Source: Allochromatium tepidum (GTDB lineage Bacteria; Pseudomonadota; Gammaproteobacteria; Chromatiales; Chromatiaceae). Taken from it: a stretch of DNA of 64,000 bases. Numbering within the stretch: the stretch's first letter is position 1; each line of letters opens with the position of its first letter. Below the pieces are notes generated by a model, which saw nothing but the letters and a program-made list of their open reading frames with translations, ran no database searches and was not told where the DNA came from. The translations under genes were made by a program, and so were the position numbers. The stretch is from the NCBI RefSeq assembly GCF_018409545.1, contig NZ_AP024563.1:1442755-1506754 (forward strand), written 5' to 3'. Below are positions 15,629 to 38,640 of the stretch, piece after piece.

Positions 15629-16420
15629 TCAGCGCCGCCGCAACGAGAAGCCGGCGATGACAACCGCCAGCGCGACCACGGCGACCACCAGGGTCGCGAG
15701 CGCGTTGATCTGGGGCGAGACACCCATGCGCACGCTCGAATAGATCACCATCGGCAGCGTGGTCGAGCCGGGGCCGGAGACGAAGCTGGCGATGACCAGA
15801 TCGTCGAGCGAGAGCGTGAAGGCCAGGAGCCACCCGGAGAGCAGCGCCGGGGCGATCAGCGGCAGCGTGATGCGCAGATAGACCGTCAGCGGACGCGCGC
15901 CAAGATCCATCGCGGCCTCTTCCAGCGAGCTGTCCATTCGCGCCAGACGCGAGCGCACCACCACGGCGACATAGGCCATGCTGAACGTGATGTGGGCGAT
16001 GGTGATGGTGCTGAAGCCGCGTCCGTCCGGCCAGCCGATGGTCTGTTGCAAGGCGACGAACAGCAGCAGCATGGACAGACCGATGATGACGTCCGGCATC
16101 ACCAGCGGCGCGGTCAGCAGCAGTTCCAGCCCGGTACGGCCGCGAAAGCGTCCGTGACGCACCAGGGCATTGGCCGCGAGCGTGCCCAGTACCAGGGCGA
16201 TGGTGGCATTGAGCGCCGCGATACGCACACTCAGCCAGGCGGCATCCAGCAACTGCCGGTTGTGCAGTAGCTCTCCATACCATTTGAGCGAAAAGCCCGA
16301 CCAGACCGTCACCAGCCGCGATTCGTTGAACGAATAGAGGATCAGCAGCAGGATCGGCACATAGAGGAAGGCATAGCCGAAGGCCAGTACGCTCAGGAGC
16401 GGCCAGGAGCGTCGTTTCAT
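15629..16420 (-). CDS. potC: Polyamine ABC transporter permease, PotC/PotI type
   Basis: A 263-aa inner-membrane permease with about six membrane segments. The transport-ATPase contact loop is EEAAMDLGARPLTVYLRITLP (the EAA motif). It is the second permease of the spermidine/putrescine uptake system encoded by the genes to its right. Its GGAGGA ribosome site (16422-16430) abuts the end of the inserted IscB-family element, so the promoter for potC expression may be affected. Confidence 0.94.
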   Translation of the reverse strand: MKRRSWPLLSVLAFGYAFLYVPILLLILYSFNESRLVTVWSGFSLKWYGELLHNRQLLDAAWLSVRIAALNATIALVLGTLAANALVRHGRFRGRTGLELLLTAPLVMPDVIIGLSMLLLFVALQQTIGWPDGRGFSTITIAHITFSMAYVAVVVRSRLARMDSSLEEAAMDLGARPLTVYLRITLPLIAPALLSGWLLAFTLSLDDLVIASFVSGPGSTTLPMVIYSSVRMGVSPQINALATLVVAVVALAVVIAGFSLRRR

Positions 16421-16429
16421 CAGTTCCTC

Positions 16430-16818
16430 CGCGAGAAACCCCGTCCTTCAGGGCGGGGAGGGAGAGCGGCTACGACCGTGCAGCCGCCGGAAACAGGTGC
16501 AGGCTTTCCACCTGCCGGGCCGTGAGGCTCTGCCCGTAAGGGCCTGGTGACGGTGCGGCGTCTCACGACGCGACACGCTCCCCTCGCCAATGTGTGCCAC
16601 CGGCTCCCGCCTGACGGCGGCGACCCGAACCTTCGACGCTTTACCTTTCGTCAGCATGGTCCGGGCCTTTCAGAGCGGCGGACTGAGGAAGCATCCGCCG
16701 GTGAGTCTTGACGACCTGTTGCACACGGAGCCCCTTTCGACCGTCCCGGTCAGGCGGGCTGAGGCTGGTCAACCCAGCTTGCTTTCACAAGCTCCGCCCT
16801 TCAGGGCGGGGTAGTTGA
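16430..16818 (-). mobile_element. Miniature IscB-family element with orphan omega-RNA, no nuclease gene
   Basis: The left boundary CGCGAGAAACCCCGTCCTTC (from 16430) is the same as at 36954, the 3' end of the IscB element. The right boundary has a hairpin with TTCA loop (16792-16811), as at 38613-38632. Between them the segment 16530-16812 is clearly related to the omega-RNA region upstream of iscB, for example GACTGAGGAAGCATC in both. The iscB gene itself is absent; only about 70 unrelated-looking bases separate the RNA region from the end. It lies between potB and potC. The right-hand end point is uncertain within about six bases. Confidence 0.8.
16530..16812 (-). ncRNA. Orphan omega-RNA-like sequence
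   Basis: Aligned by eye with 38375-38635, this segment shares blocks CTGACGG/GTGACGG, GCTCCCCTCG, GAACCTTCG-CG-TTTACCTT, GACTGAGGAAGCATC and GACCTGTTGCA-ACGGAG in the same order, with several changes that keep stems. In IscB systems the guide is the 5' end of the RNA and derives from the DNA just outside the element, here the 3' end of potB. The RNA would be transcribed leftwards, in the direction of the pot operon. No promoter was identified; transcription could come from the operon. Confidence 0.65.
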
Positions 16819-17730
16819 CGTCCGTCCGCCCTCGTTATCCTGTTGCAGCCGCTGCATGAGCACGAAGGGCACCACCAGCACCGCGAGCAGCACGATCGCC
16901 AGTGCCGAGGCCAGCGGCCAGTCCTTGTTGGCGAAGAACTCGGTCCACATCAGCTTGCCGATCATCAGACTTCCCGGACTGCCGAGCAGATCCGGGATCA
17001 CGAACTCGCCGACCACCGGAATGAACACCAGCATGCTGCCGGCGACGATGCCCGGCATCGACAGCGGCAGGGTCACGCGCGTGAAGGCGCGAAACGGCCG
17101 ACAGCCGAGATCCGCCGCCGCCTCCAGCAGGGTCGGGTCGAGCCGGGTCAGGTTGGCATAGAGCGGCAGGATCATGAACGGCAGGTAGGAATAGATCACG
17201 CCGATATAGACCGCCGTCTGGGTGTGCAGGATCTTCAGCGGCTGGTCGATGACCCCGAGCTGGAGCAGAAAATTGTTGAGCAGCCCATTGGCGTTCAGCA
17301 GCCCGATCCAGGCATAGACCCGGATCAGGAACGAGGTCCAGAACGGCAGGATGATGAGCATCAGGAGCGGAATGCGCCGCGACTCGGGCGCGGTGGCGAT
17401 GGCATAGGCCATCGGATAGCCGAGCAGCAGACAGCCGAGCGTGCCGATCAGAGCCACCCAGAGCGAGTTGAGCAGGGCCGCCAGATACATCTCGTCCTGC
17501 CCGATCAACTGGAAGTTGCCCAGGTTGAGGCGGATCTGGAGCACGCCCTGTTCGACCCACTCCCAGAGCGCGGTGTAGGGCGGCTGGGCGAGCTGCGGCT
17601 CGGCCAGGCTGATGCGCAGCACAATGACGAAGGGCAAGAGGAAGAATAGCCCCAGCCACAGATAGGGCAGGCCGATGTTGACCAGTCGCCCCAGACGGCG
17701 CTCGTTGCTCAGGCGTGGCGATTGTTTCAT
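16801..17730 (-). CDS. potB: Polyamine ABC transporter permease, PotB/PotH type
   Basis: A 309-aa permease with about six membrane segments and the EAA loop EAAADLGCRPFRAFTRVTLPL. It partners PotC in the polyamine uptake channel. The last few codons, encoding about STTPP and the stop TGA (16801-16803), are supplied by the end of the inserted element, so the native C-terminus has been replaced. The core of the protein is intact. The gene follows potA by 10 bases. Confidence 0.94.
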   Translation of the reverse strand: MKQSPRLSNERRLGRLVNIGLPYLWLGLFFLLPFVIVLRISLAEPQLAQPPYTALWEWVEQGVLQIRLNLGNFQLIGQDEMYLAALLNSLWVALIGTLGCLLLGYPMAYAIATAPESRRIPLLMLIILPFWTSFLIRVYAWIGLLNANGLLNNFLLQLGVIDQPLKILHTQTAVYIGVIYSYLPFMILPLYANLTRLDPTLLEAAADLGCRPFRAFTRVTLPLSMPGIVAGSMLVFIPVVGEFVIPDLLGSPGSLMIGKLMWTEFFANKDWPLASALAIVLLAVLVVPFVLMQRLQQDNEGGRTSTTPP

Positions 17731-17740
17731 GCGCGCCGGC

Positions 17741-18877
17741 TCAGTCGGTCAGGACCACGCCGCTGGTCGGCGACCACTCGACCCAGACCTCCTGCTCCCA
17801 GGTCAGGGCCTGCTCGGTGCGCGGCTGGATGTTGGTCAGGGTCATCTCGACCAGGGTGTCGCCGCCGGTACGGATGCGGTAGATCGATACGTCGCCGAGA
17901 TAGGCGATGTCCTCGACCACGCCCTGGAGCCGGTTGACGCCCTCATCGCTCGGGGTCCGGCACAGACGCAGTTTCTCGGGCCGGATCGCCACGACCGCCG
18001 GGGTGCCGATCGGATGCGGCTGGAGATTGCGCATCCGCATCAGACCGCCGAACTGGGCCTCGATCAGGACGTCGTCGCCCTGGATCTCGACGATCTTGCC
18101 CTCGAACAGATTGACCGAGCCGATGAACTCGGCCACGAAGCGGCTGTTGGGGAACTCGTAGATCGCCGTCGGGGTGTCGACCTGCATAATCCGACCCGAG
18201 TCCATGACTGCGATGCGGCTCGACATGGTCATGGCCTCTTCCTGATCATGGGTGACGGTGACGAAGGTGATGCCGAGCCGCTCCTGGAGGTTGACCAGCT
18301 CGAACTGGGTGTTCTCGCGCAGACGTTTGTCGAGCGCGCCGAGCGGCTCGTCGAGCAGCAGCAGCTTGGGGTGCTTGGCGAGACTGCGGGCAAGCGCTAC
18401 GCGCTGACGCTGACCGCCCGAGAGCTGATCGGGCCGACGTTTGCGCAGTTCGGTGATTCGGAGCAGATCGAGCATTTCACCGACGCGCTCGGCGCGCTCG
18501 CGGCGCGGCAGCCGGTCCTGTTTCAGCCCGAACTCGATGTTCTGCTCCACCGTCATGTGCGGAAAGAGCGCATAGGACTGGAACATCATGTTCACCGGCC
18601 GCGAGTAGGGCGGTACGTCGGTGACATCCACACCGTCGATATGGATGCGCCCGCTGGTCGGATACTCCAGACCGGCCAGCAGCCGCAGCAGGGTCGACTT
18701 GCCGCAGCCCGAACTGCCCAGGAGCGAGAAGAACTCGCCCTGGAAGATGTTCAGGCTGACGTCGTCGACGGCATAGACGTCACCGAACTTCTTGGTGACG
18801 CGCTCGATGCGCACATAGGGCGCGGCCTTGGGATCCTGCCAGGGTTCCAGCGGACGGCGATCGGAAGGACTGGGCAC
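17741..18877 (-). CDS. potA: Polyamine ABC transporter ATP-binding protein, PotA/PotG type
   Basis: A 378-aa ATPase energising polyamine import. Walker A GSSGCGKST (about 54-62), signature LSGGQRQRVALAR, Walker B LLLLDEPLGALD and the switch His in VTHDQEEA are all present. The C-terminal ~120 residues form a TOBE/MOP-like regulatory domain, as in the PotA/MalK class. It lies between the binding-protein and permease genes with short gaps, in one operon. Confidence 0.96.
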   Translation of the reverse strand: MPSPSDRRPLEPWQDPKAAPYVRIERVTKKFGDVYAVDDVSLNIFQGEFFSLLGSSGCGKSTLLRLLAGLEYPTSGRIHIDGVDVTDVPPYSRPVNMMFQSYALFPHMTVEQNIEFGLKQDRLPRRERAERVGEMLDLLRITELRKRRPDQLSGGQRQRVALARSLAKHPKLLLLDEPLGALDKRLRENTQFELVNLQERLGITFVTVTHDQEEAMTMSSRIAVMDSGRIMQVDTPTAIYEFPNSRFVAEFIGSVNLFEGKIVEIQGDDVLIEAQFGGLMRMRNLQPHPIGTPAVVAIRPEKLRLCRTPSDEGVNRLQGVVEDIAYLGDVSIYRIRTGGDTLVEMTLTNIQPRTEQALTWEQEVWVEWSPTSGVVLTD

Positions 18878-36886: not shown

Positions 36887-37009
36887 GCGGCGGCCTCGAT
36901 GGCGCGCGCGGCGCGCGTGCTGGCGGGAAGGGTGGCGAAGATCATCAGCATTGCGCGAGAAACCCCGTCCTTCAGGGCGGTGAGGGATAGCGCGCGGCGC
37001 GTAGCGCCG

Positions 37010-38359
37010 TCAAGCCGCCCGTCTCGCTTCCTCCGTCTGTGGTTTGGGTTGAAATGAATAACCATAGCCGTCGGCACGCTGAAGGAGACGGCAATGGCGG
37101 TAGGAGATCCCCTGGACGGTTCCGCCCTGGGTTTGGATGTTGAACGATCCGGTTCGGCGCACCGCCACACGCCCGACATGCACACCGGCCTTCTTGCCTT
37201 TGGGCACCTCGGCGCGCACCCAATCGCCGGTCTGGAAGCCGTGGACGCGCTTTTCACGGGTGAGATAGCCGCGCGGGAAGCCGTTGTTGAACGTGCGCGT
37301 GCGGCTGTAAGCGCCGCGTCCGGTGGCGCGGATGGCCAGGACCGGGCGGTTCCAGTCCCGTAGCTGATCGACGGCGCCGACACAGGCGGCATCGAGGGCA
37401 TGGGTCTTGGGGATGTCCAGGCGCGTGCGATTGAACTTGGTGCGTCCGCCCGAGCCGGTTTCGACCGCCAGACCCGTAGCTTTGAGCGCCGCGAACAGCG
37501 CCCAGCGCGTGGCATTGACGGCGGCGGCGTCCTGGAGCGGCGCTTGGGCCTGCGCTTGGATCTGTTTCAGGAGCACCGGCCGGCCCTTGAGAAACGCCTC
37601 GATCAGCCGGTTCCCCTTGAGTTCGTTGCAGGGCCGGCAGGCCAGCGTCAGGTTCGAGACCCGATCCGATCCGCCCCGGCTCTTGGGCTGGATATGCTCG
37701 ATCTCCAGCGGCACGTGCGTCGCGCCGCAATAGGCACAGGTGCGGTTCCATTTCTCCAGCAGGTACTCACGCACTTCGTAGCCCGCCAGTTCGCCCTGTT
37801 GGTATTCGACCCCGCGGATCTCCGGGTTCTGCATGGCCTGAGTGTCGAACCGCACCAGTTCTTGACTGAGGGCGCTGATCGGGGCGATCCGGCACAGGCG
37901 CCGTACCCAGTTGACGGTGGTGTCGAGCCGATGCTGTAACGACGGCGGCAGCCGGCCCTCACGGCGAGTGCGGTTCAGGAAGCGCGGCGCCCGGTAGCGG
38001 GTCTTGCGAGACCGACGCGCGCGCCGGTACTGACGCCGAAGCGTCAGGGCGTCCCGGATCTGGTGACCGCGATGCGTCAGTTCACCAAACCATAGTCCAT
38101 GCTCCAAGCGCTCGATCGCGCCCGTTTCAGGATCGTAGGTTTCGGATTCACGCACCAGGGCCAGTCCGGTGACACGGCTGCCCGGATCCAGCTTCAGGCG
38201 CAGCGGTTGAACCGCTCCGCCGAGCCGATCCTTCAGCCGAATGGTGAACGGGGCCGGACGCACCACCACGGCGCGTCCGCGCTCCAGTAACAGCCGCGCG
38301 CGTTTCTCCGTGCACGGCATCAGCGGACGTTTCTGTTTGTCGAGTACGAATACGGCCAT
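37010..38359 (-). CDS. iscB: IscB RNA-guided nuclease
   Basis: A 449-aa nuclease, ancestor-like to Cas9. It shows the N-terminal PLMP domain (RPLMPC at 11-16), RuvC-I LKLDPGSRVTG with Asp58, an Arg-rich bridge helix (about 108-131), RuvC-II around GELAGYEVREYLLEKW (Glu190 or Glu195), a complete HNH domain with C208, C211, H222 in IEHIQPKSRGG, N236, C241 and C244, RuvC-III KTHALDAACVG with H320 and D323, and a C-terminal beta-rich domain that reads target motif in known structures. All catalytic residues appear intact, so it is likely active with its omega-RNA to cut DNA. Confidence 0.95.
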   Translation of the reverse strand: MAVFVLDKQKRPLMPCTEKRARLLLERGRAVVVRPAPFTIRLKDRLGGAVQPLRLKLDPGSRVTGLALVRESETYDPETGAIERLEHGLWFGELTHRGHQIRDALTLRRQYRRARRSRKTRYRAPRFLNRTRREGRLPPSLQHRLDTTVNWVRRLCRIAPISALSQELVRFDTQAMQNPEIRGVEYQQGELAGYEVREYLLEKWNRTCAYCGATHVPLEIEHIQPKSRGGSDRVSNLTLACRPCNELKGNRLIEAFLKGRPVLLKQIQAQAQAPLQDAAAVNATRWALFAALKATGLAVETGSGGRTKFNRTRLDIPKTHALDAACVGAVDQLRDWNRPVLAIRATGRGAYSRTRTFNNGFPRGYLTREKRVHGFQTGDWVRAEVPKGKKAGVHVGRVAVRRTGSFNIQTQGGTVQGISYRHCRLLQRADGYGYSFQPKPQTEEARRAA

Positions 38360-38362
38360 TTT

Positions 38363-38640
38363 TCAATTCCTGCCCTTACGGGCCTAGTGACGGAGCCTCG
38401 CGGCTCGCTCCCCTCGGGAATGTCGGCAACCGGCTCTCACCTTGCGGTGACGATCGGAACCTTCGGCGTTTTACCTTGCGCCTGCATGATCCCGACCTTC
38501 CAGGGTCCGGGACTGAGGAAGCATCCCGGAGTGGGTCTCAGCGACCTGTTGCAAACGGAGCGGATGTTCACCGCTGTCCCTGGTCAACCCGGCTTGCGAG
38601 TCGCCTCACAAGCCCCCGCCTTCAGGCGGGGGTGGTGGAC
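38363..38640 (-). ncRNA. Omega-RNA region of the IscB element
   Basis: About 280 bases just upstream of iscB on its strand, with many short inverted repeats: the end hairpin at 38613-38632, GCCCTTACGGGC (38372-38383) next to the start codon, and GAGCCTCGCGGCTC (38392-38405). In known IscB elements the non-coding RNA lies here and carries the guide at its 5' end, drawn from flanking DNA beyond the right end (from about 38635 on). The strong resemblance to the segment 16530-16812 supports a conserved structured RNA. Exact 5' and 3' ends are not known. Confidence 0.8.

Follow-up and report, generated by a model that had tools for sequence, protein, structure and literature searches.

What is an omega-RNA doing between two polyamine transport genes, potB and potC, with no nuclease gene beside it? 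The locus lies in a window of 64,000 nucleotides from a purple sulfur bacterium of the genus Allochromatium, the whole stretch of DNA that we analyzed, and all its features given here, like those of the iscB element found in the same window, are on the minus strand. The original prediction placed at 16430-16818 an RNA-only derivative of that iscB element, with the same left end, a right-end TTCA hairpin and a guide taken from potB, whose RNA might be used in trans by the IscB protein. We examined the locus, its relatives and their right ends in turn.

An omega-RNA element bounded by potB and potC

The presence of an omega-RNA without iscB was borne out by cmscan, which found a whole-model match (model positions 1-211) to HEARO RF02033 at 16819-16572, with 106.2 bits against a gathering score of 83. 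The iscB gene, present elsewhere in the genome, is missing from this 399-nt element, which is bounded by both flanks. A second HEARO RF02033 match (38402-38640, 105.1 bits) is the omega-RNA of the 1695-nt iscB-bearing element delimited by its ends at 36946-38640, and it lies upstream of the gene for a 449-aa IscB (37010-38359) with Pfam RRXRR and HNH domains and PDB relatives that include OgeuIscB. Because this only other HEARO match of the window precedes iscB, the potB/potC segment is a genuine full-length omega-RNA that lacks its nuclease. The two elements do share their ends: the left end reads GTCAAC in the orphan and GTCCAC in the iscB copy, and the right-end hairpin (CCCCGCCCTGAAGGACGGGG, 16439-16458) and the TTTCTCGC tail are common to both, while the final right-end bases differ. 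The orphan element has near-terminal palindromes, no target duplication and no transposase, the features by which IS605-derived PATEs are recognized.

Its limits follow from empty alleles of relatives, in which the flank starting at 16820 joins the ATGA of potC (16417-16420) directly; the element thus occupies 16421-16819. The predicted location was right, but the predicted limits fell one base short at the 5' end and nine bases short at the 3' end, and these nine terminal bases contain most of a Shine-Dalgarno (SD) sequence, GGAGGAAC (16423-16430). The omega-RNA scaffold (16572-16819) is followed by a 3' module (16431-16571) that extends from the HEARO end to the SD. Both neighbors are permease-like: the potC-like gene (15629-16420; BPD_transp_1, 55 bits) has a start codon that abuts the element, and the potB-like open reading frame (16801-17730; BPD_transp_1, 48 bits) has lost its stop codon to the insertion and now ends at a TGA inside the left end of the element. 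In the empty allele, as read from the joined sequence, the stop and start codons overlap within ATGA. A promoter and terminator scan of 16300-17900 gave no promoter-like site and two terminator-like sites, both beyond the limits of the element.

We joined in silico the flanks of the 14 orphans of the source genome (G000; 3.38 Mb, two contigs) and looked for the joined sequences in the eight genomes of the genus; for 10 of the 14, at least one relative has a contiguous empty allele. Each element spans GTCAAC to ..CTG (..CTT in L008 and L017) immediately 5' of ATGA, with no duplicated base. For potB/potC, the empty allele is gapless in four relatives (L137, L130, L158 and L163) and has small gaps in two more, and ATGA is kept save for one ATGG. 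The same flank, which we presume to be the TAM as well as the potC start codon, is common to the orphan and iscB classes and terminates the classed copies, being altered in G001_L073; Weinberg reportedly noted ATGA/GTGA flanks. Two species carry an element at the same start of a radical-SAM gene (L014 in G000 and L075 in G001), a site that is empty in two others; L014 and L075 are not among each other's six closest elements, and parallel insertion or conversion is therefore the likely explanation.

A family of orphan omega-RNAs with a maintained fold

The source genome holds 24 HEARO matches, 18 of them above the cut-off, and four full-length iscB genes. Fourteen of these 18 RNAs belong to one orphan family of 395-399 bp with differing flanks, in a genome with full-length iscB. 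One full-length iscB gene (L027, C1:2324599) has no HEARO match upstream. HEARO matches occurred in 12 of the 93 genomes searched, the source genome included (six of the same genus, four elsewhere in the family and two elsewhere in the class). From the 83 matches in relatives 62 were taken, which together with the 24 of the source genome makes 86 places; 61 of these could be classed by a recognizable right end, the other 25 (contig ends, truncations, other right ends) being omitted. The classed copies comprise 32 orphans, 26 with iscB and three partly deleted; as the copies are related, these counts are not independent. Orphan and iscB omega-RNAs share 72% identity on average. The 3' module is kept in 31 orphans, including those of another genus (G034), and differs in the five iscB copies aligned. 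It is present, with the same SD, even in two orphans (L068 and L105) whose omega-RNA is of a clearly distinct subtype.

In an alignment of 31 orphans, which omits the 235-nt L022, the HEARO structure is 86.9% paired, as opposed to 28-41% for slid structures, and pairing is 87.4% in orphan versus 91.4% in iscB omega-RNAs. Two-sided changes were found in 18 of 65 pairs, with a mean of 6.0 in shuffles and none of 500 shuffles as high. Some of the changes are shared blocks: L017, L101, L068 and L105 differ together from the other sequences over the whole of one helix, so recombination or subtype contributes to this count and the events are fewer than the cells. L017 and L101 are mosaic copies, orphan omega-RNAs with an iscB-type helix. 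The original prediction was to be given up if compensatory changes were lacking, and the orphans have them.

These results bear on whether the orphan is a passive deletion derivative, in which the omega-RNA is mobilizable spacer, kept because it is young, and the position at gene starts reflects the purging of insertions that disrupted genes. We consider this unlikely: the orphans carry two-sided compensatory changes, though some lie in shared blocks, and they form one defined class with a 3' module of its own, found in another genus too, rather than scattered deletions. Points in favor of a passive origin come from the start-codon sites and from the decayed copies described below.

In IscB omega-RNA the guide lies at the 5' end and has 16-17 nt (PMC9640706). 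By analogy, the 16 nt of the potB 3' end at 16820-16835 would be the guide of the orphan, which supports, at the level of sequence, the predicted RNA-only derivative with its guide position in potB. At five of ten sites, a relative has an empty allele identical to the last 16 nt of the upstream flank plus ATGA. Insertion before a start codon would place guide and scaffold behind the promoter of the gene, as a 5' guide needs.

A Shine-Dalgarno sequence at the right end, facing start codons

The orphan end varies little and reads TTTCTCGC-GGAGGAACTG-ATG, and iscB ends read TTTCTCGC-GCAAGACTG-ATG (GCAATGCTG or similar). The last 10 nt of the orphan thus hold an SD at start-codon spacing, complementary to the 16S tail; neither the empty alleles shown nor any of the 26 classed iscB copies has the SD-type end GGAGGAACTG|ATG. 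The median energy of the duplex with the 16S tail, which we take to have the standard sequence, was -9.5 kcal/mol for 30 orphan ends (G001_L073 and G002_L086 omitted) and -3.7 kcal/mol for 26 iscB ends (p=1.6e-8, among related copies). A search intended to be free of ascertainment, for GGTTTCTCGC followed by 10 or 9 free bases and ATG in 11 genomes, found the SD core in 85 of 88 ten-base (orphan-spaced) ends and in 3 of 51 nine-base (iscB-spaced) ends. This near confinement to orphan-spaced ends also argues against a passive derivative. Chance likeness of the 22-nt end was rejected, as the reversed control pattern matched 0 times in 96 genomes. The looser pattern, with 10 free bases, gave a single match to its reversed control in each of G034 and G122, and its one match in G113 is probably fortuitous. 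In GTDB contigs, 69 stretches with the orphan end were found. Most belong to purple sulfur bacteria (Thiorhodospira, Allochromatium, Thiorhodococcus, Thiocystis, Halochromatium and Ectothiorhodospira), a few to MAGs of other Gammaproteobacteria or Pseudomonadota and one to a MAG of Latescibacterota; the orphan profile matches upstream of 61 of 70 ends, the nine without a match including that of Latescibacterota.

The ATGA behind the element is usually a start codon, as for potC, surE, acpP, hcp and fliL. It starts a frame of 70 or more codons for 23 of the 32 orphans (a shorter one for the other nine) and for 16 of the 26 iscB copies, compared with 29% of 4288 other ATGA sites in DNA of the window and of the 69 GTDB loci. 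Orphans and iscB copies show no significant difference in this placement (p=0.57), and we rejected the notion that insertion at start codons is exclusive to orphans. Since iscB copies sit before open reading frames without a strong SD, the SD is unnecessary for such insertion, and the bias may largely be avoidance of gene disruption; the similar enrichment of iscB copies at starts is also what a passive derivative would show. The elements lie in the sense direction of the downstream gene. Of the 23 longer frames behind orphans, 22 were compared with Pfam (18 with a family, four without), as were all 16 behind iscB copies (14 and two), some matches being below the curated cut-off. Genes behind orphans include fliL, potC-like, surE, acpP, hcp and rph. 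The family profiles of acpP, rph, hcp, asd, ihfB, aceE, pyrH, tal and galE all start between residues 1 and 6. One orphan (L003) stands before a frame that by eye is modA-like and breaks off soon after the signal peptide. Before insertion, orphan sites had a native sequence closer to an SD than that of iscB sites (medians -6.65 versus -4.2 kcal/mol, p=0.004). At acpP, a generally essential gene, the insertion shifts the native SD, which is GAGGAATCAA in six of the seven relatives shown and GAGGTATCAA in the remaining one, by about 400 nt from the start codon. The ribosome-binding site of the element itself appears, from its sequence and spacing, to let the gene behind it be translated.

Might the orphan instead be a regulatory leader, its omega-RNA acting from the 5' UTR on the downstream gene by binding IscB or by sequestering the SD? 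The RNA of the potB-potC junction is well folded (z -3.0), and the SD is partly complementary to the tail UUUCUC (16431-16438 with 16423-16430), the pairing being perfect in GGAGAAA variants. Among three folded ends, a hairpin was predicted for the GGAGAAA variant only, and sequestration was discarded as a general rule. The downstream genes have no evident function in common, and the sites of one Thiorhodococcus genome (below) have lost the omega-RNA and kept the SD; a regulatory leader is in our judgment improbable. A smaller probability still goes to GGAGGAAC being a feature recognized by the transposase, with an accidental likeness to an SD. It does adjoin the hairpin foot and the tail TTTCTC, to which it is partly complementary; but multicopy copies of the iscB class have the same hairpin and tail without it, and in the Thiorhodococcus genome, with its decayed copies of the element, conservation is seen for the SD core and not for the spacer.

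As to mobilization, two elements of the source genome (L035 and L036) carry a Y1 transposase and, by eye, a tnpB-like gene, and have ends about 85% alike to orphan ends, their IS605-type left end resembling the right-end hairpin of the orphan. They adjoin TTAC, the iscB/orphan class TCAT. Choice of target by the foot of the element is the logic of IS608. The left-end foot of L035/L036 is AAAG, that beside TCAT in the iscB/orphan class AGAA, and by this analogy the difference may explain the change of target. Given that target and the limited likeness of the ends, the two elements were not upheld as a certain transposase source; four further Y1 matches in the source genome have no orphan-like end by regular expression or BLAST.

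Ends that persist, and relation to known systems

The Thiorhodococcus MAG G029 (the same as G097 by matching positions) has no HEARO match and, apart from a weak HNH match, no iscB, but it has 16 orphan-type ends (10 exact and 15 by the 10-free-base pattern, in union). All 16 precede open reading frames of 69-885 codons with a family match for each: asd, an ATP synthase subunit, ihfB, aceE, pyrH, tal, malate synthase G, a ribosome hibernation factor, a phosphatase-like protein, an efflux protein, the RuBisCO large chain, HPr, a PHA regulator, two DUF2281 proteins and a ParE-like protein. Before the RuBisCO large-chain gene the element is shortened to about 180 bp (L254). Exact right and left ends number 10 and 0 in G029 and 18 and 18 in the source genome (p=0.004), and three left ends with one or two mismatches occur in G029. 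In 15 spacers of G029, mismatches amount to 3 of 90 at positions 1-6 (the SD core, position 5 counted as purine) and 13 of 60 at positions 7-10 (p=0.0007); this is clearly significant in G029 alone, with p of 0.05 in G104, 0.08 in G093, 0.26 in G002 and 0.70 in G000. SD-type ends also persist in G034, likewise without iscB beyond a weak HNH match. Since ends persist in both genomes, a guide role is dispensable for their retention, and by the same gene content IscB in trans appears not to be necessary for it. Such ends without omega-RNA are compatible with passive retention, and so are seven mini elements of 45-46 bp, in which the left end is fused to the right end, in the source genome, A. palmeri and A. 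humboldtianum; they precede open reading frames of 105-451 codons, two of the seven before ATGG.

Taking together the family, its exact sites, its fold, its SD and the persistence of that SD at gene starts, we favor, with a probability of roughly 0.7, a non-autonomous IS200/IS605 (ISC-type) element that obtains its guide from host promoters, relies on IscB and TnpA in trans and carries a portable SD by which its insertion is tolerated. Under this proposal, (i) the element inserts immediately 5' of ATGA, for the most part where a gene starts and in the sense direction, as the sequences show, (ii) the host promoter would read through the upstream flank, as guide, and the omega-RNA, (iii) TnpA and IscB, probably used in trans, would act on the element, so that the RNA-guided nuclease could cut empty alleles and retain or spread it, (iv) translation from its SD would replace that from the displaced native SD, and insertion at a start codon would thus be tolerated even in an essential gene, and (v) the SD would later be the gene's own ribosome-binding site, outliving the rest of the element. 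It is tempting to go further, tentatively and with somewhat less than even credence, and to see a self-domesticating element that its ATGA target motif directs to start codons, where its guide RNA would be expressed from the host promoter and its SD would keep the gene active. In this view one IscB would serve a dozen or more dispersed omega-RNAs in multi-guide cutting of empty alleles within and between related species, and the last stage of the element would be that of a ribosome-binding site at essential genes.

The guide of TnpB lies 3', unlike the 5' guide of IscB omega-RNA. IStrons, in which IS605 is fused to a group I intron, are rendered harmless to the host gene by splicing and not by a portable ribosome-binding site. 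Within the partial literature covered, we found neither an IS605-borne SD or ribosome-binding site nor an orphan omega-RNA; orphans may have been reported by Weinberg 2009, Altae-Tran 2021 or Kapitonov 2016. IscB/ISC elements with HEARO omega-RNA (OMEGA) resemble the orphan in omega-RNA family, ends, ATGA flank and guide position; the orphan differs in lacking the nuclease and in having its own 3' module and an SD at the right end. The PATEs of Haloquadratum (PMC3119063) are likewise IS605-derived, with near-terminal palindromes and no target duplication, and their 52-bp terminal-only forms recall our mini elements, whereas the accessible part of that report describes no omega-RNA and no role at start codons or as SD. 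In Borrelia, IS605 stem loops beside lipoprotein genes (PMC2775950) are gene-linked ends that outlast the element, as here, but they lie at the 3' ends of genes, and the part of the source at hand describes no ribosome-binding site. The gene drive of IS200/605 TnpB (PMC11870625) uses a guide that keeps a record of where the element inserted and directs attack on empty alleles, as proposed for the orphan, with the difference that its nuclease is encoded in cis. The orphan family joins guide-RNA biology to translation initiation, in a transposon derivative that seemingly replaces the ribosome-binding site of a host gene. If confirmed, it would represent a natural arrangement of many guides with one nuclease in a relative of the Cas9 ancestor, a route for the turnover of translation signals and, beside splicing and the targeting of safe sites, a third route to a harmless mobile element.
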